A stretch of 64,000 nt of DNA from Acidobacteriota bacterium (GTDB lineage Bacteria; Acidobacteriota; Vicinamibacteria; Vicinamibacterales; UBA2999): positions 62,001 to 126,000 of the forward strand of contig JAUYQQ010000002.1 in the NCBI GenBank assembly GCA_030697165.1. Reading direction: 5' to 3'. Each line of letters opens with the position of its first letter. The first letter of the stretch is position 1. Under the pieces are notes generated by a model. The model did no database searches and was not told the DNA's origin. It saw nothing but the letters and a program-made list of their open reading frames with translations. A program made the position numbers and the translations under genes. Shown piece after piece: positions 13,608-45,168 of the stretch.

Positions 13608-13687
13608 CGGGAGTCGGGAGTCGGGAGTCGGTCGGGAAACCAATCGCTCCAGCATTTCGACTCCCGGTTCCCGATTCCCGACTCCCG
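13608..13687. repeat. Inverted GGGAGTC repeat array at a convergent junction, probable terminator
   Basis: Tandem GGGAGTC units (three copies from 13608) are followed about 25 bases later by their inverted complement (CGACTCCCGGTTCCCGATTCCCGACTCCC in two blocks, ending 13687). The array fills the space between the ATPase stop and the convergent response-regulator stop. A further one-sided copy lies at 34758-34789. Confidence 0.75.
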
Positions 13688-30160: not shown

Positions 30161-30166
30161 GTGACT

Positions 30167-30703
30167 ATGCCGGTTGTCATGGATGCGGAGCGCATCTCGC
30201 GCGCGCTCACTCGCATCGCCCACGAAATTATCGAGCACAATCGCGGCCTGGCGAACATCGCCCTCGTGGGCGTGCGCAGCCGTGGCGTGCCGATCGCCCA
30301 TCGAATCGCCCACGACATCCTCCAGATCACCACGGAAGAAATCGCGGTCGGCGCCCTCGACATCACCCTCTATCGTGACGACCTGATGGGCGCCTCGGTC
30401 GGCCTCGCGCCAATGGTCCGCAAGACCGAGATTCCTTTCTCCATCGATGGCCGCACCATCGTGCTCGTGGACGACGTGCTCTATACGGGCCGGACCACGC
30501 GCGCCGCGCTCGACGCGCTGACGGATTTTGGCCGGCCCAAGTCGATCCAGCTGGTGGTGCTGGTCGATCGCGGCCACCGCGAGCTGCCGATCAAGGCCGA
30601 CTACGTCGGCAAGAATGTGCCGACCTCCCGCACCGAGAGCGTGCAGGTCCACTTGCGCGAGCTCGACGGCGTGGACGAAGTGTTGCTCGAAGGGAAGGCG
30701 TGA
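30167..30703 (+). CDS. pyrR: PyrR, pyrimidine operon RNA-binding regulator / uracil phosphoribosyltransferase-like
   Basis: A 178-residue PRTase-fold protein. The PRPP-binding motif is [32 protein letters not shown] and [28 protein letters not shown] are PyrR-specific segments, the latter containing RNA-contact residues. In other bacteria UMP/UTP-loaded PyrR binds a leader RNA and lowers pyr expression. Such an element lies immediately upstream and another precedes pyrC, so this protein probably regulates both operons. The start is ATG at 30167; the in-frame GTG at 30161 lies inside the ribosome site. Confidence 0.94.
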
Positions 30704-31653
30704 TGCTGACCGCCCTCAAGCAGAAGCACTTGCTTGGCATCGCCGACCTGAGCCCCGAAGAGATCGTCCTGATTCTCGACACGACCGAGGCCATGAAGGA
30801 AGTGGGGCAGCGCACCATCAAGAAGGTGCCGACGCTGCGCGGCCGCACCGTCATCAACCTGTTCTTCGAGCCAAGCACGCGCACGCGGACCTCGTTCGAG
30901 ATTGCCGAGAAGCGGCTGAGCGCGGACACACTCAACGTGGCGATTGCCTCATCCAGCGTGGTGAAGGGCGAGACGCTGGTCGACACCGCGATGAACCTCG
31001 AGGCGATGGCGCCGAGCATGATCGTGCTGCGTCACGCCTCTTCCGGCGCCTGCCACCTGCTCTCGCGCATCTGCAAGGCCGCCATCGTCAATGCCGGCGA
31101 CGGCATGCACGAGCACCCGACCCAGGCGTTGCTCGACGCGTTCACGATTCGCGAGCGCAAGGGTAAACTGGCCGGCCTCAAGATCGCAATCGTGGGCGAC
31201 TTGCTGCACAGCCGCGTGCTGCGGTCGAACGTGCTGTTGCTGACGAAGCTCGGCGCGGATGTCTGGGTGTGTGCGCCGGCGACGCTGATTCCGCCGGGGC
31301 TCGCGCAGATGGGCGTGACGGTGACGACGCGCGTGGACGAGGCCGTCGAGGGCGCCGACGTGATCATGATGCTGCGCATCCAGCTCGAGCGCATGCAGGG
31401 CGCCTATTTCCCGTCGCAGCGCGAGTATTTCCGGACCTTCGGCATGACCGAAGCCCGGGTGGCGCGGGCCAAGACCGACGTCATCATCATGCATCCCGGG
31501 CCCATCAACCGCGGGGTGGAAATCGCCTCAGAAGTTGCCGATGGCGCCTCGTCCGTAATCCTCGACCAGGTCGCCAATGGGGTCGCCGTGCGCATGGCGG
31601 TGCTCTACCTGCTGGCCGGGGGCGGCGAAGCCGAGGCGGCCCGGGCCGATTGA
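30703..31653 (+). CDS. pyrB: Aspartate carbamoyltransferase catalytic subunit
   Basis: A 316-residue enzyme for the first committed step of pyrimidine synthesis. [19 protein letters not shown] is the carbamoyl-phosphate motif, [19 protein letters not shown] and [14 protein letters not shown] the following active-site segments, and [12 protein letters not shown] the C-terminal loop. Start ATG at 30703 overlaps the pyrR stop (TGATG); GTG at 30700 is an alternative. No regulatory pyrI is adjacent. Shares the PyrR-controlled transcript. Confidence 0.95.
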
Positions 31654-31714: not shown

Positions 31715-32365
31715 ATGATCCGGTGGTTTCGCTCGCGCGTGGGCACCCTGCTCCACGCTGTACGGCATTTGGCTCCCGTTCGCCGCGTCGCAACCGCACA
31801 GTTGCCGACCGAGTTTGGTGAGTTCACGATCCACGTCTTCGAGAACGGGCTGGGCGGTGGCACGCACGTCGCCATGGTGCGCGGCGAGTTGGGCGACGGC
31901 GAGAACGTGCTGGCCCGCGTCCATTCCTCGTGCCTGACCGGCGACATCTTCCACTCGGCGCGGTGCGACTGCGGCGAGCAGTTGCACGCGGCGCTCCAGC
32001 GGATCTCGGACGAGGGCCGCGGCGTGCTGCTGTATCTCAACCAGGAAGGCCGCGGCATTGGCCTGGCGAACAAGATTCGCGCCTACGCCCTGCAGGAGGC
32101 CGGCTGCGACACGGTTGAAGCCAACGCCCGCCTCGGCTTCCCGGCCGACCTGCGCGACTACCGCGCGGCCATTCGCATGCTGCAGGACCTCGGCGTGCGC
32201 TCGACCCGGCTGATGAGCAACAACCCGCGCAAGCTGGCCGGCATCACCGGCGAGGGCCTGTCGGTGAGCGAGCGCCTGCCGATCGAGATCCTGGCCAACG
32301 CCGCGAACGAACGCTACCTGAAGACCAAGAAAGACAAGCTCGGTCACCTGCTCTCGTCGGTGTAG
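31715..32365 (+). CDS. ribA: GTP cyclohydrolase II
   Basis: A 216-residue zinc enzyme that opens the imidazole ring of GTP to give the 2,5-diamino-pyrimidinone precursor of flavins. The zinc ligands are in SSCLTGDIFHSARCDCGEQL and the catalytic segment is LLYLNQEGRGIGLANKIRAYALQ; SNNPRKLAGI and KKDKLGHLL close the domain. It is a stand-alone RibA without the RibB half. Neighbours are not riboflavin synthase or lumazine synthase genes but the pterin-like cluster downstream, so it may feed a dedicated pathway. An N-terminal extension of about 25 residues (MIRWFRSRVGTLLHAVRHLAP) precedes the core. Confidence 0.93.
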   Translation: MIRWFRSRVGTLLHAVRHLAPVRRVATAQLPTEFGEFTIHVFENGLGGGTHVAMVRGELGDGENVLARVHSSCLTGDIFHSARCDCGEQLHAALQRISDEGRGVLLYLNQEGRGIGLANKIRAYALQEAGCDTVEANARLGFPADLRDYRAAIRMLQDLGVRSTRLMSNNPRKLAGITGEGLSVSERLPIEILANAANERYLKTKKDKLGHLLSSV

Positions 32366-32368
32366 CCG

Positions 32369-33931
32369 GTGTTCGCCGCCGCCGCCCTGCTGCTGCTGAA
32401 CGCGTCGCTCACGTTCGGCAACGTGTGGCCCACCCCGAAAATTCGTTGGGAGAATGCGTTGTCGGTGGAGCTCGCCGTGTGCGTACTGCTGCTGGCCGTC
32501 GCGCACCAACGGGCCGAGCGTCTGGCCCGGCGGGTGCTGCCGGTGCTGTGGGTGCTGCTGGTCGCAGGTCATTACCTCGATGTGACGGCCCCGGGTCTGT
32601 ACGGCCGCGACTTCAACCTCTATTGGGATTCCCGTCACCTGGGCAACGTCACCGCCATGCTGGCGCGCGCGGTGCCGGCGTGGCAAATCGTGGCGGCGGC
32701 GGCCGGCCTGGTGCTCGTCATCGCCGCCGTGTTCCTGCTCGCCCGGCTTGCCCTTCGGCATCTGGCCGCCGCAGTGCAGCATCGCCGCGCGCGTCTCCTG
32801 CTCGGGTCCGCTGCGTCACTCGTGATTGCATTGTTCACGCTGCAGCAGGTCACGTCGTTCGCGCAGCCGGCGTTTGCCGAGCCCGCGACCGGTGCCTACC
32901 TGCGCCAGGCGCGATACGTTGTCGCCATGACCGCAACCGGCGGCGCCTCGCCGGTGCTGGGCGACAGCCCGGACTTCGGCACGGCTGACTTGCGCGACCT
33001 GGACGGCGCCGATGTCGTGCTGGTGTTTCTCGAATCGTACGGCGCGGTCACGTTCGACAATCCGGAGTTCGCTGAAGTGCTGGCGGGGAGCCGGCGCAAT
33101 CTCGAAGCCGCCGTGGGCGACGCCGGGCGCGAGTTGATCTCGGCCTATGTGGAATCGCCGACCTTTGGCGCTTCGTCGTGGCTGGCACATCTCAGCCTGC
33201 TCACCGGCGTGAAGGTGACCGATCAGTACGAGTACACCTCGCTGATGGCATCATCCCGCGACACCATCGTGAGAGCATTCAGCCGCGGCGGCTACCGGAC
33301 CGTGGCGTTGATGCCGGGCATGCGCCAGCCGTGGCCCGAAGGCGCGTTCTACGGCTTCGACGTGATCTACGGTCGTGACTTGCTGGCGTACGAGGGCCCC
33401 GAGTTTGGCTGGTGGGGCATTCCCGATCAGTTTGCGCTGGCCAGGCTCGATGCGCTCGAACGCAGTGCTGCGTCGCGGGCGCCGCTGTTCGCGGTGTTTC
33501 CCACCAGCACCTCGCACGCGCCGTTTGGCCCGGTACCGCCGTTCTTGCCCGAGTGGTCACGCGCGCTGCAGAAGGACGGCTATCGTCCCGAGGACGTGAC
33601 GGCCGCTCCCGCGCCTGACCTTACCGATCTGGCGCCGAGCTACCTGCGCGCCATCGCCTACGGCTACGACACGCTGGCCGGCTACATCCGCGCGCATGCC
33701 GGCGAGAACCTGGTGCTGATCGTGATTGGCGACCACCAGCCTCCAGCGGCGGTGAGCGGCCGCACCGCGGTGCGCGACGTGCCGGTGCATGTCATTGCCA
33801 GTCGTCCCGAGTTGCTGCGCCGCCTGCGCGCGAGCGGCTTCCACGACGGCCTCGCACCCGTTCGGCCCGGGGCTGGCGAGATGCACGCGCTGGTCCCAGC
33901 GTTGCTGGAAGCTTTCAGCGTGCGGGAATGA
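32369..33931 (+). CDS. Sulfatase/LtaS-like membrane protein (alkaline-phosphatase superfamily)
   Basis: A 520-residue protein with about four N-terminal membrane spans and an extracytoplasmic domain from about 190. ADVVLVFLESYGAV has the Glu/Ser region of LtaS/OpgB-like phosphotransferases, SPTFGASSWLAHLSLLTGVKV the nucleophile region, GYRTVALMPGM.QPWPEG and FPTSTSHAPFGPVPPFL follow the family order, and IVIGDHQPP carries the metal-binding Asp-His. The GTG start lies three bases after ribA, implying one transcript. It may transfer or hydrolyse a phospho-head group; with the CDP-alcohol phosphatidyltransferase next door it hints at lipid or glycan decoration. Confidence 0.8.
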   Translation: MFAAAALLLLNASLTFGNVWPTPKIRWENALSVELAVCVLLLAVAHQRAERLARRVLPVLWVLLVAGHYLDVTAPGLYGRDFNLYWDSRHLGNVTAMLARAVPAWQIVAAAAGLVLVIAAVFLLARLALRHLAAAVQHRRARLLLGSAASLVIALFTLQQVTSFAQPAFAEPATGAYLRQARYVVAMTATGGASPVLGDSPDFGTADLRDLDGADVVLVFLESYGAVTFDNPEFAEVLAGSRRNLEAAVGDAGRELISAYVESPTFGASSWLAHLSLLTGVKVTDQYEYTSLMASSRDTIVRAFSRGGYRTVALMPGMRQPWPEGAFYGFDVIYGRDLLAYEGPEFGWWGIPDQFALARLDALERSAASRAPLFAVFPTSTSHAPFGPVPPFLPEWSRALQKDGYRPEDVTAAPAPDLTDLAPSYLRAIAYGYDTLAGYIRAHAGENLVLIVIGDHQPPAAVSGRTAVRDVPVHVIASRPELLRRLRASGFHDGLAPVRPGAGEMHALVPALLEAFSVRE

Positions 33932-33948
33932 TGCTTGTCCACGAACTT

Positions 33949-34053
33949 GCCACAGAGGGCGCAGACGACACAGAGCCAACCTCTTTAAATGCGATCAGGC
34001 TTCGAACTGGCGGACACGCCTTTTGAAGTATTTGACTCTGTGTTCTCTGTGGC
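33949..34053. repeat. Inverted CACAGAG repeat between convergent genes
   Basis: The left arm contains GCCACAGAG and ACACAGAG (33949-33975), the right arm CTCTGTGTTCTCTGTGGC (34036-34053). It fills the gap between two convergent stop codons and could act as a bidirectional terminator; the sequence type also occurs as a dispersed repeat in many genomes. Confidence 0.65.
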
Positions 34054-34062
34054 TGATTTCTG

Positions 34063-34728
34063 TCACCCCCTCGACAACCGCCTCACATCGATGGCAAACG
34101 ACCATACGAGCGTTGCCAATGTGACCGCCGCGACGACCGCACTGGCCGGCGCCGGAACCACCGGGGCAAGCGCCAGGCCCAGGCCGGCGAACTGCGCAAC
34201 GGCGACGCTCTTGCCTCGAAGTGTTGGTTTGAGCGGATTGTTCATCCACGGCAGTACCCACCCGGCCGCGACGAACGCGTAGCGCATCAACCCGCAGGCC
34301 AGCACCCACACCCCGGCCTTGTCGTACCGCCACACGAACAGCGACAGCACCAGGATCAGCAGGGCATCGACCTCGACGTCGAACCGGGCACCGAACATGC
34401 TGGCCAGGCCGGTTCGCCGCGCGAGCCAGCCGTCGAGACCATCAAGGGCGGCCAGGCAGGCGGTTGCCCCCACCACGAACCACGCGACTTCGTGGCTCGT
34501 TGGCTCCAGGAGCAGGGTCGCCGCTCGCGATACCACCGCCGCGCGGAGCATCGTGACGTAGTTGGCCGGCCCGAATCGCGCAAACGGATGATGGGCACCG
34601 ACCGTGGTCGCCGCCACCGCCATCATGACGGCGAATACCGATGCCGCTGCGGGCGAGGCAACGGCCAGGGCGAATGCGCCGACACCGCTCGCGAGCAGGA
34701 CCTGGGTGCGAAGAGGCAAGGACGGCAT
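34063..34728 (-). CDS. CDP-alcohol phosphatidyltransferase family protein
   Basis: A membrane protein of about 221 residues with six or so spans. The family motif DG-x2-(A/W)LARR-x8-G-x3-D-x3-D is present as DGLDGWLARRTGLASMFGARFDVEVDA, giving the metal-binding Asp residues. Such enzymes move a phospho-alcohol from a CDP-linked donor to an alcohol in the membrane. The start is uncertain: ATG at 34728 is preceded by GATACA and no ribosome site. The open frame to 34803 runs over the GGGAGTC repeat and the neighbouring start. Confidence 0.8.
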   Translation of the reverse strand: MPSLPLRTQVLLASGVGAFALAVASPAAASVFAVMMAVAATTVGAHHPFARFGPANYVTMLRAAVVSRAATLLLEPTSHEVAWFVVGATACLAALDGLDGWLARRTGLASMFGARFDVEVDALLILVLSLFVWRYDKAGVWVLACGLMRYAFVAAGWVLPWMNNPLKPTLRGKSVAVAQFAGLGLALAPVVPAPASAVVAAVTLATLVWSFAIDVRRLSRG

Positions 34729-34757
34729 TGTATCTGGGAGAGAATGGAAGACCCGGG

Positions 34758-34789
34758 CCGGGAGTCGGGAGTCGGGAACCGGGAGTCGG
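34758..34789. repeat. GGGAGTC tandem repeat between divergent genes
   Basis: Three to four GGGAGTC/GGGAACC units in tandem, the same units as in the inverted array at 13608-13687. Confidence 0.7.
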
Positions 34790-34802
34790 ATTGCAAAGTG
34801 CA

Positions 34803-35774
34803 ATGAATACAGAATCCAGGGCGTTTTGGGTGGTTGAGCCCGGGCGCGGTGAGATCAGGACTGAAGAACTGCGTACCCCCGGGGGCGACGAGGTCGTGGT
34901 GCGCGCGCTCTACAGCGGCATCAGCCGCGGCACCGAGGCGCTGGTTTTCAACGGCCGCGTTCCGCAGACCGAGTGGACCCGCATGCGGGCGCCGTTCCAG
35001 GTGGGCGAATTTCCCGCGCCGGTGAAGTACGGCTACTCCCTGACCGGCATCGTCGAACAGGGTTCCGCAGACCTGGTGGGCCGCCATGTGTTCGTGCTGC
35101 ATCCGCACCAGACTCGCTTCGTGGTGTCCGCCACGGCCGTGGCTGTCATTCCTGATGACGTACCTCCGGCCCGGGCGGTGCTGGCCGCGAACCTCGAGAC
35201 GGCTCTCAACGGTATTTGGGACGCCCGGCCGCACGTCGGCGATCGCATCACCGTGATCGGCGCCGGCACCGTCGGCATGCTCACCGCGTGGCTGGCCAGC
35301 CGCCTCCCCGAATGTGTCGTTGAGCTGGTAGACACCAACCCGCAACGCGCGGCGGTGGCGCGCGCGTTGGGCGTGCCGTTCGCCACGCCAGAGACGGCCG
35401 CCGGCGAGGCCGATGTCGTCATCCACGCCAGCGGGTCGCCATCAGGACTCGAGCTGGCGCTGACCCTGGCCGCGCTCGAGGCGACCATTGTCGAGATGAG
35501 CTGGTTCGGCGATCAAGCCGTGACCGTGCCGCTCGGCGGCGCGTTTCACTCGAAGCGCCTGACCATCGCCTCGTCGCAGGTGGGTCGCATTGCCCCGGCG
35601 CAGCGCGCAAGGTGGGACCATCGCCGCCGGATGCAGCTGGCGCTAGGCATGCTTCGCGATCCGGCGCTCGATGCGCTGATCACCGGCGAGAGTCCGTTCG
35701 AGACGCTGCCGGAGGTGATGGCCGGCCTGGCGCAATCTTCAGGCGATGTGTTGTGCCATCGCATCCGGTATTAG
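34803..35774 (+). CDS. MDR-type (zinc-binding alcohol dehydrogenase-like) oxidoreductase
   Basis: A 323-residue medium-chain dehydrogenase/reductase. RALYSGISRGTEALVFNGRVP, GYSLTGIVEQGSADLVGRHVFVLHPHQTRFV and the nucleotide-binding IGAGTVGMLTAWLASRL are seen; GSPSGLELAL and VEMSWFG follow. The usual structural-zinc Cys cluster is absent and the catalytic Cys-His set is not evident, so it may be zinc-independent. This subfamily is commonly found beside a PTPS-like gene and a glycosyltransferase, as here. Start ATG at 34803; upstream frame is antisense to the neighbouring gene. Confidence 0.82.
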   Translation: MNTESRAFWVVEPGRGEIRTEELRTPGGDEVVVRALYSGISRGTEALVFNGRVPQTEWTRMRAPFQVGEFPAPVKYGYSLTGIVEQGSADLVGRHVFVLHPHQTRFVVSATAVAVIPDDVPPARAVLAANLETALNGIWDARPHVGDRITVIGAGTVGMLTAWLASRLPECVVELVDTNPQRAAVARALGVPFATPETAAGEADVVIHASGSPSGLELALTLAALEATIVEMSWFGDQAVTVPLGGAFHSKRLTIASSQVGRIAPAQRARWDHRRRMQLALGMLRDPALDALITGESPFETLPEVMAGLAQSSGDVLCHRIRY

Positions 35775-35797
35775 CCCGTGTTCTCTGCCATGCGTCA

Positions 35798-35828
35798 CAC
35801 AGAACCACGGAAACACAGAACCACGGAA
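35798..35828. repeat. Direct repeat, two copies of CACAGAACCACGGAA
   Basis: Copies at 35798-35812 and 35814-35828 (period 16) in the gap between the MDR gene and the PTPS-like gene. Purpose unknown. Confidence 0.7.
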
Positions 35829-35937
35829 CCTCGTTTGGCCACAAAGATTGTCGGCACTTCAGTGATTCGGTGCTTCAGTGCGAGGCATTTGTGAGATACC
35901 CCGCAATCATTCACCAAGACAACGGAAGGAACACTCG

Positions 35938-36348
35938 ATGTACTACGTAACGGTGCGCGACCACATCATGATCGCGCACAGCTTCAGGGGCGAGGTGTTC
36001 GGTCCCGCCCAGCGCCTGCACGGTGCGACCTATGTGGTCGACGCCGAGTTCCGCCGCCCCGATCTCGACGCCGACGGGATCGTCGTCGATATTGGCCGCG
36101 CCGGCGAGGCGCTGAAGAAGGCGCTGGCCGACCTGAACTTCCGCAACCTGGACGAGGTGCCGGAATTCAAGGGCAAGAACACCACCACTGAGTTCATCGC
36201 ACGAACCGTGTTCGACCGGATGGTGGCGGCGATCCACCGCGGTGATTTGGGTCCCGGCGCCGGCGCGGTGGAAAGCTTGCGCGTGACACTGCAGGAATCG
36301 CACGTGGCATCGGCCGCGTACGAAGGCCGCGTCGGCGCCGCAGACTGA
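35938..36348 (+). CDS. Diverged 6-pyruvoyl-tetrahydropterin synthase/QueD-like protein
   Basis: A 136-residue T-fold protein. [29 protein letters not shown] aligns with the zinc and substrate region of PTPS/Que[47 protein letters not shown] with the rest, and the C-terminal LRVTLQES contains the pterin-anchoring Glu. Two of three zinc His are there (His14, His28) but the HGH motif reads HGA, and the position of the catalytic Cys (four before His28) is Ala24. It cannot work like a canonical PTPS, yet the substrate-binding Glu is kept. GGAAGGA precedes the ATG. Sits between MDR and GT4 genes. Confidence 0.87.
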
Positions 36349-36349
36349 T

Positions 36350-36383
36350 CACAGCCGCAGATTCAAACACAGCCGCAGATTCA
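36350..36383. repeat. Direct repeat, two copies of CACAGCCGCAGATTCA
   Basis: Copies at 36350-36365 and 36368-36383 between the PTPS-like stop and the glycosyltransferase start. No ribosome site is visible in the remaining 12 bases. Confidence 0.75.
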
Positions 36384-36395
36384 GAATAAGACCTG

Positions 36396-37451
36396 ATGAA
36401 ATCAGCAGTGTTTGTCGTGCCCGGGTCGATTGCCGCCAGGACCGGCGGCTCGATCTACGACCGGCGCATGGTCGATGGCTTGCGCCGGCGTGGCTGGGAC
36501 ATCACGGTCGTGGAACTTGCGGGCGACTTTCCGCAGCCCTCGGCGGAGGCGGTGACAGGCGCGGCCGCGGCCCTGGCGGCGCTGCCAGACGCCGCGCTGG
36601 TGGTGATGGATGGCCTCGCACTCAGTGCCCTCCCAGAGGTCATCGAACGCGAGGCCGCGCGCTTGCGCATCGTCGCACTCGTCCACCTGCCGCTTGCCGC
36701 TGACGTAAGCATCGATGCCGAAACCCGCGATCGGCTGGCGGTCGCGGAGCAGCGTGCCCTCGCCGCGTCGGCGCTGATTGTCGTCACCGGTGCGGCCACT
36801 CTTGGCCTGCTCGAACCCTATGCACTGCCGCGCGATCGCGTGGTTGTGGTCGAACCCGGCACTGACCCGGCACCGCAGGCCAAGGGCTCTGACGGCGCTC
36901 GCGTGCACCTGCTGTGCGTGGCGACGGTCAACGCCGGGAAAGGACATGATGTGCTGTTCGAGGCGCTGGCAGCCGTGCCGAATCGAGCGTGGCGCCTCAC
37001 GTGCGCCGGAAGCCTGACGCGTGATCACGCGACCGTTGACCGCGTTCGCAGCCTCGTGTGGCAGCTTGGACTCGACGATCGGGTGACGCTCGCCGGAGAG
37101 CTGGATGCCGAAGCACTCGTGACCTGCTATGACTCTGCCGATGTGTTCGTCCTGGCCACGCGCCGCGAGACCTACGGCATGGCCGTGGCCGAGGCGCTGG
37201 CGCGCGGACTGCCAGTGGTGAGTACGACGACGGGAGCGATTCCCGATCTCGTTGGCGCCGACGCCGGCGTGGTGGTGCCACCGGGTGAGGTGGCGCCACT
37301 TGCGGAAGCGCTGTCGCGCGTCATCGGCGACGCGGATCTTCGCGCCCGGATGGCAGCCGGCGCGCGCGAGGTTCGCGATCGCCTGCCAGTGTGGGAGGTG
37401 GCAGCCGCCCGGATGGACGCTGCTCTTCAGAAACTCAATTCCCATGTCTGA
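36396..37451 (+). CDS. Glycosyltransferase family 4-like protein
   Basis: A 351-residue GT-B enzyme. The N-terminal half opens MKSAVFVVPGSIAARTGGSIYDRRM, the C-terminal half has LLCVATVNAGKGHDVLFEAL, VTLAGELDAEALVTCYDSADVFVLATRRETYGMAVAEALARGLPVVST, with the E-x7-E type nucleotide-sugar motif at ETYGMAVAEAL. It probably glycosylates a small molecule or lipid made by the surrounding cluster. It overlaps the first methyltransferase by 8 bases. Confidence 0.88.
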   Translation: MKSAVFVVPGSIAARTGGSIYDRRMVDGLRRRGWDITVVELAGDFPQPSAEAVTGAAAALAALPDAALVVMDGLALSALPEVIEREAARLRIVALVHLPLAADVSIDAETRDRLAVAEQRALAASALIVVTGAATLGLLEPYALPRDRVVVVEPGTDPAPQAKGSDGARVHLLCVATVNAGKGHDVLFEALAAVPNRAWRLTCAGSLTRDHATVDRVRSLVWQLGLDDRVTLAGELDAEALVTCYDSADVFVLATRRETYGMAVAEALARGLPVVSTTTGAIPDLVGADAGVVVPPGEVAPLAEALSRVIGDADLRARMAAGAREVRDRLPVWEVAAARMDAALQKLNSHV

Positions 37452-38352
37452 AACTCTTGGCGACTGGCTGAAGCTGCGCGAGGCGGCCGATTGGGAAGCG
37501 CGGTCGTCGCGGCTCGTCCAACGGGTTGTCGACGCGGCGCCCCAGGAAGGGGCGCCCTACAACGTTCTGGATCTCGGCACCGGCACCGGATCCAACGTTC
37601 GTTACCTGGCCGATCGCCTGCCGGGTCACCAGCATTGGCTGGTTGTAGACCGGAGCCCGGACTTGCTCGCCCTGGTGACCAATCGCACCGCGTCCTGGGC
37701 CGCGTCGCGCGGCTACGAATGCCGCGCAACGGCGACGGGACTACACGTGCGTCACGAGACGCTGGACTGCGAGATCGAAACACGGCAGCGCGACCTTCGG
37801 GTGCTGGACGACCCCGGACTGTTCGCGGGTCGGCAGCTGGTGACGGCATCGGCGCTGCTGGATCTCGTGTCCGAGTCGTGGCTCCAGTCGCTCGCCGCGC
37901 GGTGCCGGGACGCGGGCGCCGCCGTGCTGTTTGCCCTCACCTATAACGGCGAATCATCGTGTTCGCCGGCGGAGCCCGAAGACGAGCTCATTCGGGAGCT
38001 GCTGAATCAGCACCAACACACCGACAAGGGTCTTGGTGGCATCGCCGCCGGCCCAGACGCGGTGGCCTGCGCCGAACGCTGCTTCATCGACGTTGGCTAC
38101 CAGGTTCACATCGAGCCCGCCGACTGGAACATCGGACCCGCGCACGCCGACATGCAGCGCTACCTGATCAACGATTGGGCGAGTGCCGCCAGCGAGTTGG
38201 CGCTCGTTAGGCAACCCCAAGAAGGGGTTGCCTCCACCGGTCCCAGCTGGATCACCGGTTGGCGAGATCGCCGGCTCGCACACATTGATGCCGGACGATC
38301 ACGCATCACCGTTCGCCATCACGATCTCGCCGCCTGGCCGGCGACACCATGA
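37444..38352 (+). CDS. Class I SAM-dependent methyltransferase (first of two)
   Basis: A 302-residue protein with the SAM motif VLDLGTGTGSNVRYLADRL, an acidic end of strand 2 (LVVDRSPDLL), and a strand-4 region LVTASALLDLVSESWL. The start ATG at 37444 overlaps the GT4 stop; the longer frame is a shadow of GT4. Residues encoded at 38209-38233 (VRQPQEGVAS) come from a perfect 10-5-10 palindrome inside the gene, which looks like an in-frame inserted repeat. Its stop overlaps the next methyltransferase (ATGA). Methyl acceptor unknown. Confidence 0.85.
   Translation: MSETLGDWLKLREAADWEARSSRLVQRVVDAAPQEGAPYNVLDLGTGTGSNVRYLADRLPGHQHWLVVDRSPDLLALVTNRTASWAASRGYECRATATGLHVRHETLDCEIETRQRDLRVLDDPGLFAGRQLVTASALLDLVSESWLQSLAARCRDAGAAVLFALTYNGESSCSPAEPEDELIRELLNQHQHTDKGLGGIAAGPDAVACAERCFIDVGYQVHIEPADWNIGPAHADMQRYLINDWASAASELALVRQPQEGVASTGPSWITGWRDRRLAHIDAGRSRITVRHHDLAAWPATP
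38209..38233. repeat. Perfect hairpin-forming palindrome inside a coding region
   Basis: AGGCAACCCC-AAGAA-GGGGTTGCCT, read in frame in the first methyltransferase. It looks like a REP-type insertion tolerated near the protein's C-terminus. Confidence 0.8.
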
Positions 38353-39206
38353 CCGCGCCACCGGCACCCCGATTCGACCCAGCGCAAGTCCGCGATTACT
38401 ACGATCGTCACTCAGCCACCTTTGTGTCCCGCGGCCAGGGTGGCGGCGCCATCCATCGCGCCGTGTGGGGGCCAGGGGTCAGCCACCGTGCCCAGGCGTT
38501 TCACTACGTTGAGGATCGGATCGCGGAGATCGCGCAATCCCTGGCTGCGCCCGCTGGACACCCGCTCCACATCGTCGACCTCGGGTGCGGCGTTGCTGGA
38601 AGTGCGTGCTACCTGGCCGAGCGCCTGCCAGTACGGGTCACCGGCATCACGCTCAGCCCGGTGCAGGCCCGAATCGCTCACGCCCGCATCCGTGAAGCCG
38701 GCCTCTCGGATCGGGTGGCATGTCTGGTCGGCGACTACAACGACCTCCCGGAGGTCGGCACAGCGGATCTCGCGTATGCGATTGAGTCGTTTGTGCACGG
38801 CCCCGAGCCCGATCGCTTCTTCGCGCAGTGCCGGCGGCTGTTGAGACCTGGTGGAGTGCTTGTGATCTGCGACGACTTTCTCCGTCCCACCACGGATCCG
38901 CGCGCGGCCCGCGCCATCGAGCGTTTCTGCCGCGGCTGGCATGTCAACACGCTGCTGGATCGCGACGCACTGCAGGCGCTGGCGCAAGCCCACCGCTTTA
39001 GCCACGACTCGACCGTGGATCTGTCGCCCTACCTGGAACTTGGTCGCGCCCGTGACCGACTGCTGAGCGCGCTGCTGCCGTTGCTGAACTTGCTGCCGAT
39101 CAACTCCGGCCGATTCGATTACGTGAATGGTGGCAGCGCCTTGCAGGAATGCCTGGCGCAGGGCTGGATCGCGTACGAGATGGTGACGTTTCGCGCGCCT
39201 AGGTAA
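38349..39206 (+). CDS. Class I SAM-dependent methyltransferase (second of two)
   Basis: A 285-residue protein of the small-molecule methyltransferase type: VRDYYDRHSATFV at the start, IVDLGCGVAGSACYLAERL (SAM motif I), GITLSPVQARIAHARI, GDYNDLPEVGTADLAYAIESFVHGPEPDRFF and RLLRPGGVLVICDDF, as in sterol/coq/mycolate-like C- or O-methyltransferases. Coupled to the first methyltransferase by an ATGA overlap. It ends four bases from the convergent RibD-like gene. Confidence 0.9.
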   Translation: MTAPPAPRFDPAQVRDYYDRHSATFVSRGQGGGAIHRAVWGPGVSHRAQAFHYVEDRIAEIAQSLAAPAGHPLHIVDLGCGVAGSACYLAERLPVRVTGITLSPVQARIAHARIREAGLSDRVACLVGDYNDLPEVGTADLAYAIESFVHGPEPDRFFAQCRRLLRPGGVLVICDDFLRPTTDPRAARAIERFCRGWHVNTLLDRDALQALAQAHRFSHDSTVDLSPYLELGRARDRLLSALLPLLNLLPINSGRFDYVNGGSALQECLAQGWIAYEMVTFRAPR

Positions 39207-39209
39207 CGC

Positions 39210-40175
39210 CTAGATCACTCGCGTGACGGCCGGAGCGCGGTCGGCCGCGTGATCGGTGTTGGTCTGCGAATCCAGCTCGCAGTCGAACAGCACGTCGCCG
39301 CCCATCCGGAACACACGATAGCCAGGGCGGAGGCAGTCGCGCAGGCGCTCCTGCGGCGCCAGCCGAATGGCGGGCCGGCCGTCGCCGATCAACACCGGCG
39401 CGATCGCGAGTTGCAGGCGGTCCAGCAAGTCCGCTGCCAGAAACGCCGACACCGTGACGCCACCGCCTTCAACGAACACGCGCCCGCAGCCGCGCGCCCG
39501 CAGCAGCGCCAGCAGTTCCGCTACGCCCCCCGGGCCTTCGGCAACGCCGATGGCGGTGGCATCGCCCACCTGCGTTTCGCCTGACGCCAGCCGTGATTGT
39601 TCGCAGACATAGAGTGTCGGGGCCGCGCCATCGGTGAAGAGCTTGAAGGTCGGTGCGAGCCGCCGGCCCGGGTCGTAGATCACGCGCAGTGGGTGTGGCC
39701 CGCTCACGTGCCGGGTCGTCAGCTGCGGATCGTCCGCGGCCACCGTGCCGGCACCAACCACGACCGCGTCGCACAACGCCCGCATGCGATGCAGGTGGAC
39801 GATGTTGCCGCCGCCGGTGACGAACTGCGAATCACCGGAATGAGTGGCGATGAACCCGTCGAGGCTCTGGCCAAGATGTCCAACGGTCATCGGCCGTGAA
39901 GTCGTTGCGCTGCAAATGGGGAGGTAGAGATCGAGCAGGTCTGCCAGAGGGCTGTCGACCGGCAGCCGCGAGTGCCAACCGGAGCCCGGCTGCCACTCGA
40001 GCACGGCACGGTCGGCATCACCGGTCACCGGTTGCAGCTTCGTGCCGTCCAGCGAGAACGACTGTGCCCGCCCATCACGCTCCAGGTCGCCGGCCATGGC
40101 GCTGGCCGCGAGCAGCAGGGGCCAGGTGGCGTCGGCGGCTAACGCCGATGGCGACGAAATGCTTTCTGGCGACAC
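39210..40175 (-). CDS. RibD C-terminal (reductase) domain protein with an unknown N-terminal extension
   Basis: A protein of about 321 residues. From about residue 95 it matches the RibD reductase/DHFR-like fold: MTVGHLGQSLDGFIAT, LHRMRALCDAVVVGAGTVAADDPQLTTRHV, HPLRVIYDPGRRL, VFVEGGGVTVSAFLAADLLDRLQLAIAPVLIGDGRPAI. The RibD deaminase half is absent; instead about 95 residues without recognised similarity precede the domain. It likely reduces a ribosylamino-pyrimidine with NADPH. The GTG start at 40175 lacks a well-spaced ribosome site and could be wrong. It converges on the methyltransferases and diverges from the pyrC leader. Confidence 0.85.
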   Translation of the reverse strand: MSPESISSPSALAADATWPLLLAASAMAGDLERDGRAQSFSLDGTKLQPVTGDADRAVLEWQPGSGWHSRLPVDSPLADLLDLYLPICSATTSRPMTVGHLGQSLDGFIATHSGDSQFVTGGGNIVHLHRMRALCDAVVVGAGTVAADDPQLTTRHVSGPHPLRVIYDPGRRLAPTFKLFTDGAAPTLYVCEQSRLASGETQVGDATAIGVAEGPGGVAELLALLRARGCGRVFVEGGGVTVSAFLAADLLDRLQLAIAPVLIGDGRPAIRLAPQERLRDCLRPGYRVFRMGGDVLFDCELDSQTNTDHAADRAPAVTRVI

Positions 40176-40244: not shown

Positions 40245-40304
40245 ATGACCACTTTCCTGTCACCCGGGCGGCGTACGCCGCACATGCTCCTCACACACCT
40301 ATGA
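40245..40304 (+). CDS. 19-codon leader ORF overlapping the pyrC start
   Basis: The frame encodes MTTFLSPGRRTPHMLLTHL and ends in a TGA that overlaps the pyrC ATG as ATGA. Its start is seven bases after AAGAGG, the 3' strand of the PyrR element, whereas pyrC itself has no ribosome site. The simplest reading is that ribosomes enter here and reinitiate at pyrC, so PyrR binding would silence both. The peptide itself may have no function. The call rests on position only. Confidence 0.6.
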   Translation: MTTFLSPGRRTPHMLLTHL

Positions 40305-41605
40305 AACGCTTGCTCAAGGGCGGCCGCGTCGTCGACCCGGCCAACGGACGCGATGGCATCTTCGATGTGCTGCTCGACGGCGATCGTATTGCCGAGGTCG
40401 GTGCCAACCTGAAGGCCGACGGCGCCGAGGTCATCAATATTCCGGCCGGGCTGGTCGTGTGTCCGGGCCTGATCGACATGCACGTGCACCTGCGCGAACC
40501 CGGCCAGGAGCACAAGGAAACCGTCGCGACCGGCGTGGCCTCGGCCGTGGCCGGTGGCTTCACCGCGGTCGCCTGCATGCCCAACACGAAGCCGGTCAAC
40601 GACAACGCCGGTGTCACCAAGCTGATCCTGCAGAAGGCAGCCGAAGCGAACCTGGCGCGGGTGTATCCCATTGGTGCCGTCTCGCGCGGGCAGAAGGGCG
40701 AAGAGCTTGCGGATATCGCCGAGCTGAAGGAAGCCGGGTGTGTCGCCGTGACCGACGACGGTTTGCCGGTGGCGACGGCCCTGCTGGCGCGACGGGCGCT
40801 CGAGTACACCAGCATGTTCAACATGCCGGTGATCGAGCACTGCGAGGATCAAACGCTGAAGGGTGATGGCGTCGCCCACGAAGGCCCGGTGGCGGCATCG
40901 CTCGGCCTGCGCGGCATTCCGGGCGTCGCCGAGGCCATCACCGCCGGGCGCGACATCCTGCTGGCCGAAATGACCGGCGGCCACATCCACATCGCGCACA
41001 TGAGCGCATGGACCACCATCGAGGCGGTCCGCCAGGGCAAGAGCCGCGGCGTGAAAGTGACCTGCGAGGTGTGCCCGCATCACTTCACGCTGACCGACGA
41101 CCTGCTGGCCGCGCCGGTGGCGTATGACACCAACACCAAGATGAACCCGCCGCTGCGCGAGGCGCGCGACCGCGACGCCATGCTCGCCGGTATCGTCGAC
41201 GGCACCGTGGACGTGATTTCGACCGACCACGCCCCGCATCATTACGACGAGAAGAACGTCGAGTACGACCGTGCGCCGTTCGGCATTGTCGGTCTCGAAA
41301 CCGCGGTGTCGATCACGCTCGACAAACTGGTGCACACCGGCCTGATCACGCTGTCGCGCATGGTCGAACTGATGTCGGTGAACCCGGCGAAGATCCTGAA
41401 CGTGCCCGGCGGATCCTTGTCGGCCGGAGCGCCGGCCGACATCACCATCCTGGCGCTGGAGTTGCCCGTGACGGTCGACAAGACCAAACTGGTCAGCAAG
41501 TCGAAGAACACGCCGTTCCACGGCTGGGCCTTCAAGGGCGGCGTGGCCGCCACCATCGTCGGCGGACGCACGGTCTACGCCAACCCCGCGGCAGGACTCC
41601 AATGA
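40301..41605 (+). CDS. pyrC: Dihydroorotase
   Basis: A 434-residue class I dihydroorotase that cyclises carbamoyl-aspartate. Zinc ligands are in DMHVHLREPGQEHKET and TGGHIHIAHMS; CEVCPHHFTLTDD, MNPPLREARDRDAM and STDHAPHHYDEK complete the amidohydrolase set with the catalytic Asp. Translation seems coupled to the 19-codon leader ORF. Overlaps the following PRTase gene (ATGA). Confidence 0.95.
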   Translation: MKRLLKGGRVVDPANGRDGIFDVLLDGDRIAEVGANLKADGAEVINIPAGLVVCPGLIDMHVHLREPGQEHKETVATGVASAVAGGFTAVACMPNTKPVNDNAGVTKLILQKAAEANLARVYPIGAVSRGQKGEELADIAELKEAGCVAVTDDGLPVATALLARRALEYTSMFNMPVIEHCEDQTLKGDGVAHEGPVAASLGLRGIPGVAEAITAGRDILLAEMTGGHIHIAHMSAWTTIEAVRQGKSRGVKVTCEVCPHHFTLTDDLLAAPVAYDTNTKMNPPLREARDRDAMLAGIVDGTVDVISTDHAPHHYDEKNVEYDRAPFGIVGLETAVSITLDKLVHTGLITLSRMVELMSVNPAKILNVPGGSLSAGAPADITILALELPVTVDKTKLVSKSKNTPFHGWAFKGGVAATIVGGRTVYANPAAGLQ

Positions 41606-42228
41606 CTTCATCTGGAAACGCCCGTCACGACGGTGTCCGGGCGCGCGCGCTCGACGACATGCGCCGCTTCGAAGTGGTGATGGCGGGCCACTTCGATTAC
41701 GGCAACGGCTTTCACGGCAAGCTCTACCTGAATCCGCACAAGCTGCTGCAGTGGCCGTCGACGATCTGGCGCGTCGCGCAGGATCTGATCGACATCATGC
41801 CGGCGGACTTCGCCGAGGCCGAGGTGATTGCCGGCCCCGCGACCGGCGGCGCGGTGCTGGCCCACACGGTGGCCGGCCTGCTCGACGGCCGCCGGCCCAT
41901 GACGCATCCCCCGTACTCGTTCGCGCCGTTTGGCGATGAGGAAGGCGACCCGGTCCTCAGCCCGTTCTACGCGACGAGCATGCACGGCAAGCGCGTGTTG
42001 ATCGTGGACGACGTGCGCAACACCGGGACGACCTTCCGCAAGTGCGCGGACCTGGTCGCGGCTGCCGGCGGCATCGTCATTGGGACCATGCAGATCGTCG
42101 ACCGCTGCGAGGTGTGCGTCACCGTGGACGTGCCGAACGTGGCGTTGGTGGAATACACCGCGCCGCCCAACTATGCGGCGGGGTCCTGCCCGATGTGCGC
42201 CGACAGGGTCCCGATCACCAGCTTCTGA
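41602..42228 (+). CDS. PyrE-like phosphoribosyltransferase
   Basis: A 208-residue PRTase. The PRPP motif is VLIVDDVRNTGTTFRKCADLV and GPATGGAVLAHTVAG is the orotate/pyrophosphate loop; GHFDYGNGFHGKLYLNPHKLLQWP resembles the hood start of orotate PRTases. However, the flexible catalytic loop with the KExxxHG lysine and histidine is not recognisable, and the C-terminus has a CPMC pair. Position between pyrC and TIGR02757 supports a pyrimidine role, perhaps orotate PRTase, but a different PRTase reaction is possible. Under PyrR control with pyrC by context. Confidence 0.7.
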   Translation: MTSSGNARHDGVRARALDDMRRFEVVMAGHFDYGNGFHGKLYLNPHKLLQWPSTIWRVAQDLIDIMPADFAEAEVIAGPATGGAVLAHTVAGLLDGRRPMTHPPYSFAPFGDEEGDPVLSPFYATSMHGKRVLIVDDVRNTGTTFRKCADLVAAAGGIVIGTMQIVDRCEVCVTVDVPNVALVEYTAPPNYAAGSCPMCADRVPITSF

Positions 42229-43380: not shown

Positions 43381-43763
43381 TTCTTGAGAGCGCGTTTCTA
43401 AGAGATCTTGAGCGTACTCATCGCCGTGGGGTGCCAGGAGGGGCGCTAGAGTTCCTTGAGGCGAACCAAGACGCCCGGCTCTATCTGCCGTTCGTGGTAG
43501 CGGGAGAGATCGCTTCAGGCATCTCCATGCGCGACCGCGCTCGGTGGGAGGCGTTTCTGGCACCCTATTATGTGTTGCCTGTGACCCCCGAAGTCAGCTG
43601 GCAGTACGGCCGCGCATTCCGTCACTTGCGCGACAACCGCATCCCAATAGATCGGAGCGAACTCTGGATCGCCGCCACCGGCCTCGCCTACGAGATGCCG
43701 GTGGTCACCAGGAACGTCGAGCACTTCAAGCGCGTGCCGGGCCTTGAAGTTGAAAGTTACTGA
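43365..43763 (+). CDS. PIN-domain ribonuclease toxin, VapC-like
   Basis: A 132-residue PIN-fold protein, presumed Mg-dependent RNase. The usual acidic set is present in altered form: Glu8 (LILESAFLRDL) where most members have Asp, Glu48 (VAGEIASG), Glu99 (SELWIAATGL) instead of Asp, and Asn117 in VTRNVEHF. Two Asp-to-Glu changes in the metal site may weaken catalysis. Its end overlaps the start of the qhpG-like frame by up to 20 bases. Confidence 0.85.
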   Translation: MGRALILESAFLRDLERTHRRGVPGGALEFLEANQDARLYLPFVVAGEIASGISMRDRARWEAFLAPYYVLPVTPEVSWQYGRAFRHLRDNRIPIDRSELWIAATGLAYEMPVVTRNVEHFKRVPGLEVESY

Positions 43764-45144
43764 CCATGTGGTGGTGCTCGGCGGCGGTCCCGCGGGTGCC
43801 GCTGCCGCGAAGCTCCTCTCGGAGTGGGGCCATCCCGTCCGCCTGATCACGCGACCGGCTCCCGACGCTCGCCTGGCCGTGTCTGTTCCCCCCAGCACCG
43901 GCAAGCTGTTCGAGGCCGTGGGCATCCGCGACGCGATCGGGCGCGCCGGTTTCATCCGCTCCACCGGCAATACCGTCTGGTGGGGACAGCCGCAGCCGCG
44001 CGTCGAACCATTTGCCGGCGGCTCCCTGGGATGGCAGGTCCCACTGCAGCGCCTGGACGACGTGATGCTGGCGGAGGCGAGGGCCGCCGGCGTGGCCGTT
44101 GAACGCCGGCTGGTCGTCGAGGCCGACCTGGCGGCGGCGGCCGGTCAGTTCCTGATCGACGCCACTGGTCGATCGGGCCTGCTGGCTCGCGCCAAAGGGG
44201 TGCGCGTCCATGCGGACGGACCGCGCACGGTGGCGCTGGTGGCCGAATGGAAGCGCGCCGGGGCGTGGCCCGTGCCAGACGACACGCATACCCTGATCGA
44301 ATCCTACGAATCGGGATGGGCCTGGTCGGTGCCAACGTCGCCCGGCATTCGGCATGTGGCGGTGATGGTCGATCCGCAACGGTCCGCGCTTGCCCGCGGC
44401 GCCTCGGCCCGCGAGCTTTACCTCGCGGAGATCGACAAGACCGTGACCTTTCGGCGGCTGACCGCCACCGCTGAATGCGTGGACGGCCCGAAGGGCTGGG
44501 ACGCGTCCGAGTATCGCGCCGAGCAGTACGCGGGCGATGGTTGGCTGCTGGCCGGCGACGCCGGCTCCTTCATCGATCCCCTGTCGTCCGCAGGCGTGAA
44601 GAAGGCGCTGGCGTCGGGCTGGCTGGCGGCAGTTGTGGCGCACACCTGCCTGCGCACGCCCGCCATGCGCCCGTACGCACTGGCTTTCTTCTCCGGCCGC
44701 GAGCAGGAGATCGAGCGCCACTATTCGCGGATGAGCCGTGCCTTCCTGGCTGAGGCCGCGCCCAATCACCCGGATGCGTTCTGGCGCGACCGCGCCGACG
44801 CGCCCGACGCGCCGGGCACCGATGCCTTGGTCCTGCGGGAGGCGCTCGAGGCGCTGCGCTCGGCGCCAAACCTGGCCCTTCGTCCCGGCGACGCGGCCAT
44901 CGAGCCGCGCCCGGTCGTTCGAAATCACGAAATCGTGCTCCAACCACACATCGTCAGCGGCAGCGAATCGATTCGATTCGTGCGGGGCGTTGACGTGATC
45001 GCGCTGAGGGAGCTGGCGCCGCAGTGCGCGCAGGTCCCCGACCTGTTCGAGGCGTACGGCCGGTTGCACGGCCACGTCCCCCTGCATGACTTTCTGTTTG
45101 CCCTTGCCACCGTGGTTGCGCGGCGCTGGCTTGTGTCACAATGA
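43744..45144 (+). CDS. qhpG: QhpG-like flavoprotein monooxygenase
   Basis: A 466-residue FAD protein with the Rossmann motif VVVLGGGPAGAAAAKLLSEWG, the middle motif LIDATGRSG and the second FAD motif GWLLAGDAGSFIDPLSSAGVKKAL of tryptophan-halogenase/monooxygenase-like enzymes. In studied systems QhpG hydroxylates the tryptophan of the amine dehydrogenase gamma subunit during CTQ formation. Its place at the head of a complete qhp set supports that role. The start is uncertain: TTG at 43744, TTG at 43750 or GTG at 43768 are all possible and none has a clear ribosome site. Confidence 0.87.
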   Translation: MKLKVTDHVVVLGGGPAGAAAAKLLSEWGHPVRLITRPAPDARLAVSVPPSTGKLFEAVGIRDAIGRAGFIRSTGNTVWWGQPQPRVEPFAGGSLGWQVPLQRLDDVMLAEARAAGVAVERRLVVEADLAAAAGQFLIDATGRSGLLARAKGVRVHADGPRTVALVAEWKRAGAWPVPDDTHTLIESYESGWAWSVPTSPGIRHVAVMVDPQRSALARGASARELYLAEIDKTVTFRRLTATAECVDGPKGWDASEYRAEQYAGDGWLLAGDAGSFIDPLSSAGVKKALASGWLAAVVAHTCLRTPAMRPYALAFFSGREQEIERHYSRMSRAFLAEAAPNHPDAFWRDRADAPDAPGTDALVLREALEALRSAPNLALRPGDAAIEPRPVVRNHEIVLQPHIVSGSESIRFVRGVDVIALRELAPQCAQVPDLFEAYGRLHGHVPLHDFLFALATVVARRWLVSQ

Positions 45145-45168
45145 CGCCGAATTGTCGGAGGTCCCGAA

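Follow-up and report, generated by a model that had tools for sequence, protein, structure and literature searches.

The 64,000-nucleotide stretch of an Acidobacteriota bacterium analysed here (contig JAUYQQ010000002.1, positions 62,001 to 126,000; below, the window) carries a block of nine genes at positions 31715-40175, in which a GTP cyclohydrolase II (RibA) lies together with a degenerate PTPS/QueD homologue. The nine genes are not a chance assembly; they are a real conserved unit, and we put the probability at about 0.8 that they represent a single conserved pathway that starts from the product of GTP cyclohydrolase II. The full statement, which adds a glycosylated and methylated pyrimidine or pterin as the product class and a link to lipid, is in our judgement a little better than an even bet. 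The first-pass annotation of the window had named nine gene families, and all were present in place. Pfam and NCBIfam profile searches, by which the window proteins were assigned to families, agreed, for the MDR only with scores below the cut-off:

31715..32365, + strand: RibA, GTP cyclohydrolase II, stand-alone second copy of 216 amino acids (Pfam PF00925 GTP_cyclohydro2, 1.4e-68, 230 bits)
32369..33931, + strand: LtaS-like membrane transferase of the alkaline-phosphatase superfamily (Pfam PF00884 Sulfatase, 5.5e-6)
34063..34728, - strand: CDP-alcohol phosphatidyltransferase, CDP-PT (Pfam PF01066, 1e-16)
34803..35774, + strand: MDR-type oxidoreductase, BchC-like (ADH_zinc_N 23.8 bits and bchC 57 bits, both below cut-off)
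35938..36348, + strand: degenerate PTPS/QueD homologue, SCO6650 family, T-fold (Pfam PF01242, 2.3e-23)
36396..37451, + strand: GT4-family glycosyltransferase (PF00534, 1.8e-28)
37444..38352, + strand: MT1, class I S-adenosylmethionine-dependent methyltransferase, core member (Methyltransf_25, 9.8e-7)
38349..39206, + strand: MT2, class I S-adenosylmethionine-dependent methyltransferase, lineage-specific accessory (Methyltransf_11, 2.2e-17)
39210..40175, - strand: RibD-C, RibD reductase-domain protein without the deaminase domain (PF01872, 1.6e-35)

Seven of the nine genes lie on the + strand and two, CDP-PT and RibD-C, on the - strand; little or no space separates the genes at three same-strand junctions (RibA-LtaS +3, GT4-MT1 -8 and MT1-MT2 -4 bases).

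In the proposed pathway, RibA would open the imidazole ring of GTP to give 2,5-diamino-6-ribosylamino-4(3H)-pyrimidinone 5'-phosphate (DARPP). The RibD-type reductase, the SCO6650-family T-fold protein with its altered zinc and catalytic sites and the MDR would then remodel the pyrimidine or its sugar chain. MT1 (here presumably also MT2) would methylate and GT4 would glycosylate the product, and at the membrane CDP-PT probably joins it to a phospholipid or a phospho-alcohol, a step that a flippase-like protein or an LtaS-like transferase may aid in some lineages. Each chemical step is a prediction, that of RibA itself being made from its family, and the lipid link is proposed because genes for CDP-PT, flippase-like and LtaS-like proteins are neighbours.

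Conservation of the block in other genomes

With the PTPS protein as query, homologues were found in 71 of 162 genomes of the window's order. A phylum-wide sample gave matches in 89 of 297 genomes: 11 at E 1e-60 or better, all in the window's order, a single one at 9e-25, and the remaining 77 no better than 1.6e-16. In all 20 loci fetched from other genomes of the order, PTPS was accompanied by MDR and by most of the other members.

A scan of genome contigs returned at least 582 PTPS relatives, of which the best 80 were kept; the sample is therefore biased towards close relatives, neighbouring genes having played no part in the selection. These 80 came from Acidobacteriota, Pseudomonadota (alpha, beta and gamma), Gemmatimonadota, Actinomycetota and Myxococcota, and one contig was labelled Natrialbaceae archaeon, which may be mis-binned. 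Less four duplicates of earlier loci, they left 76 (the named loci, 43 of them 18 kb or longer), which make 97 non-duplicate loci when the window and the 20 loci of its order are added; all presence counts refer to the fetched stretches only.

The strict order MDR>PTPS>GT4>MT1 was kept in 82 of the 97 loci (window included), in 40 of the 43 named loci of at least 18 kb, and in 18 of 20 further actinomycete loci. Among the 97, MDR (94), GT4 (93) and MT1 (86) were nearly constant, followed by CDP-PT (72), RibD-C (68), LtaS-like (37), RibA (35), flippase-like (31), creatininase-family (29), FkbM (25) and YceI (19) genes. MT2 was lineage-specific (16/97 loci, 3/76 named loci). Since both Myxococcota loci contained MDR-PTPS without GT4 or MT1, the full block was counted in four bacterial phyla.

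The actinomycete loci came from the class of an Amycolatopsis genome, where PTPS (E<=1e-30) occurred in 43 of 296 sampled genomes; 20 of the 44 places listed were fetched. MDR and GT4 were present in all 20, MT1, flippase-like and RibA genes in 18 each, CDP-PT in 17, the creatininase-family gene in 15, RibD-C in 6 and the LtaS-like gene in 5.

Twenty-two records of a plasmid collection matched PTPS, and eight were examined. Rhizobial plasmids of Peteryoungia and Agrobacterium carried nearly the whole set plus a cytochrome b gene. As a regular partner, cytochrome b561 was rejected (only 2/101 loci plus two plasmids). In an Arthrobacter record without annotation, MDR, PTPS and GT4 were detected. 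A plasmid of Haloarcula sinaiiensis (L142 3213-12335) carried a diverged version with creatininase, CDP-PT, MDR, PTPS, GT4 (30-33% identity) and an MT1 relative, the PTPS motif being HSH, not HGA; a gene annotated as aldo/keto reductase lies amid this set.

In the window, the block splits a pyr operon, with pyrR-pyrB (30161-31653) before it and pyrC plus a pyrE-like gene (40301-42228) after it. The block likewise lies between pyrB and pyrC in one genome of the same genus (G083), and a second one (G077) gave partial matches at the block edges (pyrB 155 residues, 56%; pyrC 248 residues, 94%). Neither gene was found beside the block in two others of the genus (G078, G081), and pyrR, pyrB and pyrC were found in none of the 20 loci from other genomes of the order. 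The pyr-operon site in the window and G083, set beside other sites in other relatives, indicates that the block moves as a unit.

An assembly of unrelated genes adjoining by chance in one genome would be in keeping with the two opposite-strand genes and with the insertion in the pyr operon, but it is refuted by a block and gene order kept in four phyla. The first-pass annotation had taken the nine genes as one set whose co-occurrence elsewhere was to be checked. The lack of conservation that would speak against such a set was not seen, and for the core the claim stands. By the counts from fetched loci, several of the nine are nevertheless optional or lineage-specific, because RibA, RibD-C, LtaS-like and MT2 genes are absent from many loci.

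Genes for osmoregulated periplasmic glucans recurred near the block in Alpha- and Gammaproteobacteria and Gemmatimonadota (mdoH in 12/97 and mdoG in 8/97 loci). Both lie beside it in L086, L087, L089, L100, L110, L114, L122 and L124, and mdoH adjoins it in Methylosinus. Together with the LtaS-like fold, this would suit a role in cell-envelope decoration, in which the product is a head group for periplasmic glucans or lipids and RibA, RibD and creatininase are accessory suppliers in some lineages only. As mdoH was found in 0/21 order loci (window included) and 0/20 actinomycete loci, we consider such a role quite improbable and retain the RibA-fed pathway.

The PTPS homologue and its partner enzymes

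At E<=0.001, the only PDB sequence match of the PTPS homologue was 3d7j, the 'uncharacterized protein SCO6650' of Streptomyces coelicolor (phmmer 3e-48, 60% identity). The predicted model (pLDDT 89.6) has the same fold, with a TM-score of 0.91 to 3d7j and about 0.73 to QueD/PTPS. The protein belongs to the T-fold superfamily (82.9 bits against the PF01242 cut-off of 22.4) and, by its high identity and the conserved HGA motif common to both proteins, to the SCO6650 family. The 2008 paper on the SCO6650 structure is said to report neither zinc nor PTPS activity.

The description of this protein as a PTPS relative without its catalytic Cys was borne out, and two further losses were found: Ala (A30) takes the place of the second HGH His in 97/97 loci, and the LDH motif has Glu or Asp instead of its His in all 19 aligned sequences. 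Two catalytic positions, the Cys and a His, and one zinc His position are thus changed. In the signature region the window protein reads G22, A24, Q25 and HGA, A24 being invariant (97/97). R7, H9, H14, H28, A30, D51, D72, E85, E120, S121 and H122 are also invariant in the 97 loci, as is the T82/E85 motif. An excerpt of PMC5041015 gives CxxxHGH, CxxxxxHGH and ExxHGH as the signatures of PTPS-I, II and III and calls PTPS-V 'still unclear'; none of the three signatures is present in the window PTPS. A QueD or folate reading of this protein was ruled out by its motif, and the genome's second PTPS is of the CxxxHGH type. In public plasmid records, SCO6650-type PTPS carries the note 'queuosine biosynthetic process'. 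QueC/QueE, FolE and sepiapterin reductase were not found among the nine genes; a genome-wide search for them was not made.

The fold and residues of this protein bear on an alternative in which the product is a soluble pterin cofactor. The T-fold protein would cyclise the RibA product to a dihydropterin, as GTP cyclohydrolase I does in the latter half of its reaction, RibD-C would take this to a tetrahydropterin, GT4 and MT1 would tailor it, and the membrane enzymes would serve a separate envelope function. E120 and T82/E85, for which we assume a pterin-binding role as in PTPS, are invariant, and the fold matches PTPS and QueD and, at a weaker level, GTP cyclohydrolases IB and I, DHNA aldolase and urate oxidase. 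A Rhodobacteraceae locus (L145 7834-11891), which adjoins a ribokinase gene, also has a reduced set, MDR-PTPS-MT1-RibD without GT4, CDP-PT or LtaS. On the other side, CDP-PT accompanies the core in 72/97 loci and 17/20 actinomycete loci, which is often for a separate function, and the best solved relative of RibD-C is a diaminopyrimidine-phosphate reductase. We judge a pterin cofactor unlikely, and we return to the pathway that remodels the RibA product and probably ends at the membrane.

That best solved chain for RibD-C is 6p8c, a DARPP reductase by title, and 2azn, whose deposit describes a putative aminouracil reductase, ranks second. Only a RibD_C domain was found in the window protein, in agreement with its description as a RibD-type reductase without the deaminase half. 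The Lys of the DGK motif is lost in 71/71 readable rows (67 without duplicates; L069 is gapped) and present in the genome's own RibD.

For the MDR, ADH_zinc_N scored 23.8 bits against the Pfam cut-off of 31.8, and the nearest NCBIfam model was bchC. By eye, the protein has no GHE zinc motif, and it reads Ser-Arg at a position where zinc MDRs have a Cys. The CDP-PT motif DxxDGxxARx8GxxxDxxxD is complete in the window protein by eye, and the family consensus agrees. The AlphaFold model of the LtaS-like protein (pLDDT 88.6) suggests an LtaS/EptA-type enzyme with membrane helices and an alkaline-phosphatase-type catalytic domain. Its nearest Foldseek matches were LtaP/LtaS, MCR-1 and GacH, with TM-scores of only about 0.3-0.5, and E222, S270, D455 and H456 are invariant in 19 sequences. 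Against sequences of solved structures, CDP-PT, MDR and the LtaS-like protein gave weak or no matches. A reading of the block as a defence system was discarded; PADLOC matched its mad2 model only, to the two methyltransferases.

GTP cyclohydrolase II and the creatininase-family partner

The window RibA has the features expected of a GTP cyclohydrolase II, keeping the Cys motif CLTGDIFHSARCDCG, the Tyr of AYALQ and the D-x-R region; we take these to be functional and the Tyr (Y124) to be catalytic. The genome (5.39 Mb, 23 contigs, listed as 100% complete) contains one further RibA-family match, a RibBA fusion on contig C11, to which the window RibA is 62% identical over 203 residues. The fusion adjoins riboflavin synthase (RibE), both recognised by eye, and a RibD of 370 amino acids (C11:230898) lies about 2 kb away. 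PTPS matches also number two, the cluster protein and the one with the CxxxHGH signature (C1:248863). With separate RibBA, RibE, RibD and CxxxHGH PTPS, the cluster is not needed for the organism's flavin or queuosine supply, and a riboflavin operon reading was ruled out by the RibBA, RibE and RibD genes. The first-pass annotation had asked whether a second ribA and riboflavin genes exist elsewhere; they do, RibH not having been searched, so that the cluster RibA and RibD-like protein are not the sole riboflavin enzymes. Its statement that riboflavin and queuosine genes are absent can hold for the window only and fails for the genome. In each of 20 other cluster-bearing genomes checked, at least one RibA-family match was found, and the six whose fetched stretch includes a cluster RibA (L110, L114, L118, L122, L123, L129) had at least one more each.

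A tree in which all cluster RibAs form one clade was rejected (52 rows vs 13, log-likelihood 154 worse, p-AU 1.25e-72), in a comparison that was set up after the first tree and that drew a long-branch warning from the tree program. Nine sequences, L073 and eight from outside the clusters, lacked the motif and were left out of the tree. In the main tree the RibA of the window shares one unresolved fork with the RibBA of its genome; an earlier tree had joined them in a set of 12 rows (98/90). RibAs of the actinomycete type without the Tyr fall together with RibA-family genes from actinomycete genomes (99/95). Proteobacteria, Gemmatimonadota and the order's family f14 have a long type in common, and a Micromonospora type is set off from the others. 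As the cluster RibAs are not one clade, GTP cyclohydrolase II appears to have been recruited or replaced repeatedly, which argues that its product is needed.

A second line of evidence is the coupling of RibA type to a creatininase-family gene. Short and long types of six loci (L043, L135, L146, L147, L149, L156) were assigned by hand, owing to read-through frames or a missing motif. Among short-type RibAs, all 17 loci with the Tyr lost had the creatininase-family gene, compared with 0/15 fetched stretches with the Tyr kept (window included); Fisher's p of 1.8e-9 is overstated, as the 17 Tyr-less RibAs form one clade and do not count as independent. In the long type the Tyr is kept, yet 19/21 had the creatininase-family gene, and the two exceptions (L073, L135) have short flanks. 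A simple rule that the gene is present where the Tyr is lost therefore holds for the short type and fails for the long type. Within the order, creatininase orthologues (E<=1e-70) occurred in 22/22 f14 genomes with PTPS, in 0/46 f1/f3 and in 0/3 f13 genomes with PTPS. Three f14 genomes (G129, G139, G144; 77-89% complete) had the orthologue and no PTPS match, and the window genome had no orthologue, its own best match reaching 31% identity (1.3e-19).

The simplest reading of this pattern is that a Tyr-less RibA leaves the formyl group and the creatininase-family partner removes it, both routes meeting at DARPP. SCO6655, a GTP cyclohydrolase II, reportedly stops at the formylated pyrimidine. For the partner, the MftE and creatininase models give the best scores, so its role in formyl removal is one that we infer. 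Its identification as ArfB is weak (ArfB model 19-38 bits in three of four members, unlisted for the fourth).

The creatininase-family hydrolase (29/97 loci) and RibA (35/97) would also fit the salvage or degradation of damaged purines or pterins, such as formamidopyrimidine-type compounds. A glycosyltransferase, methyltransferases and CDP-PT belong to building families, and RibA consumes GTP, which makes degradation very improbable and favours synthesis from the GTP cyclohydrolase II product.

Weight of the evidence and comparison with known systems

Taken together, our data support the first-pass reading in part. A conserved unit is present, and the non-single origin of RibA and its coupling to the creatininase-family gene back a RibA-fed pathway; several of the nine members are optional. 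Beside the cautions attached above to the RibA tree and to Fisher's p, and beside the Tyr-containing long type, several findings weigh against a single RibA-fed pathway. RibA is missing from 56/76 named loci (31/43 of those of at least 18 kb) and RibD-C from 14/20 actinomycete loci; short contigs explain only part of the absences of these two genes. Given the lost DGK Lys, RibD-C may not itself reduce DARPP. The ArfB deformylase model gives the creatininase proteins lower scores than do the MftE and creatininase models, and two Streptomyces plasmids (L138 10001-10399; L144 10001-10426) carry SCO6650-type PTPS without other cluster genes. No product, activity or phenotype of the cluster was found. 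Parts of the first-pass reading also lose ground through the LtaS-like gene, missing from 55/76 named loci, and MT2, missing from 73/76.

A bolder picture would be a membrane-bound, GTP-derived, glycosylated and methylated pyrimidine or pterin, present in many bacteria and some haloarchaea, supplied by a recruited GTP cyclohydrolase II, joined to phospholipid by CDP-PT and possibly redox-active. The redox activity is suggested by YceI in 19/97 loci and by the cytochrome b genes on two rhizobial plasmids; the picture as a whole is tentative, and we would sooner expect it to fail than to hold.

We compared the cluster with known systems. SCO6650 is an orphan structure, and the window differs in its Tyr-containing RibA and in the absence of a creatininase orthologue. 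SCO6655 has likewise long been known as an orphan. The riboflavin pathway shares RibA, the RibD reductase fold and DARPP as the expected first product; in contrast to it, the nine genes include no RibD deaminase, RibB, RibE or RibH, and RibD-C has no DGK Lys. The PTPS/QueD family (COG0720) shares the T-fold, E120 and the T/E motif, and differs by HGH in place of HGA. In faba bean, vicine and convicine are glycosylated pyrimidines made from the GTP cyclohydrolase II product, in a plant pathway for which we know of no T-fold protein or lipid enzymes. Toxoflavin and 8-azaguanine are antimetabolites that derive from GTP cyclohydrolase-type products. According to an excerpt of PMC7109123, the 8-azaguanine operon ptnA-F includes a GTP cyclohydrolase I-like enzyme and a nitric oxide synthase, neither of which was seen among the nine cluster genes; the same excerpt has E. 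coli RibA used to make DARPP.

A literature search found no paper describing the cluster; a metabolic-model paper names SCO6655 once. We call the cluster new because it has the defining features of no known pathway tested; SCO6650, its structure released in 2008, was already known as an orphan. That four bacterial phyla keep the block, and that a haloarchaeal plasmid has relatives of it, points to a metabolite of some value to the cell. If the product were identified, a new lipid, cofactor or signal might come to light, SCO6650 could be given a function and the 'queuosine biosynthetic process' annotations could be corrected. The differing RibA origins offer a direct way to ask which intermediate the pathway takes in.

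Other features of the window were noted. Short tandem CGGGAGT repeats occur at 13608-13631, 13676-13687 and 34759-34789, the last between the CDP-PT and MDR genes, with five exact 12-base matches against 0.05 expected. At 43744-46902 lies a flavin monooxygenase whose nearest model is QhpG (193.8 bits, cut-off 240), followed by a haem-motif protein that by eye resembles the large subunit of quinohemoprotein amine dehydrogenase.

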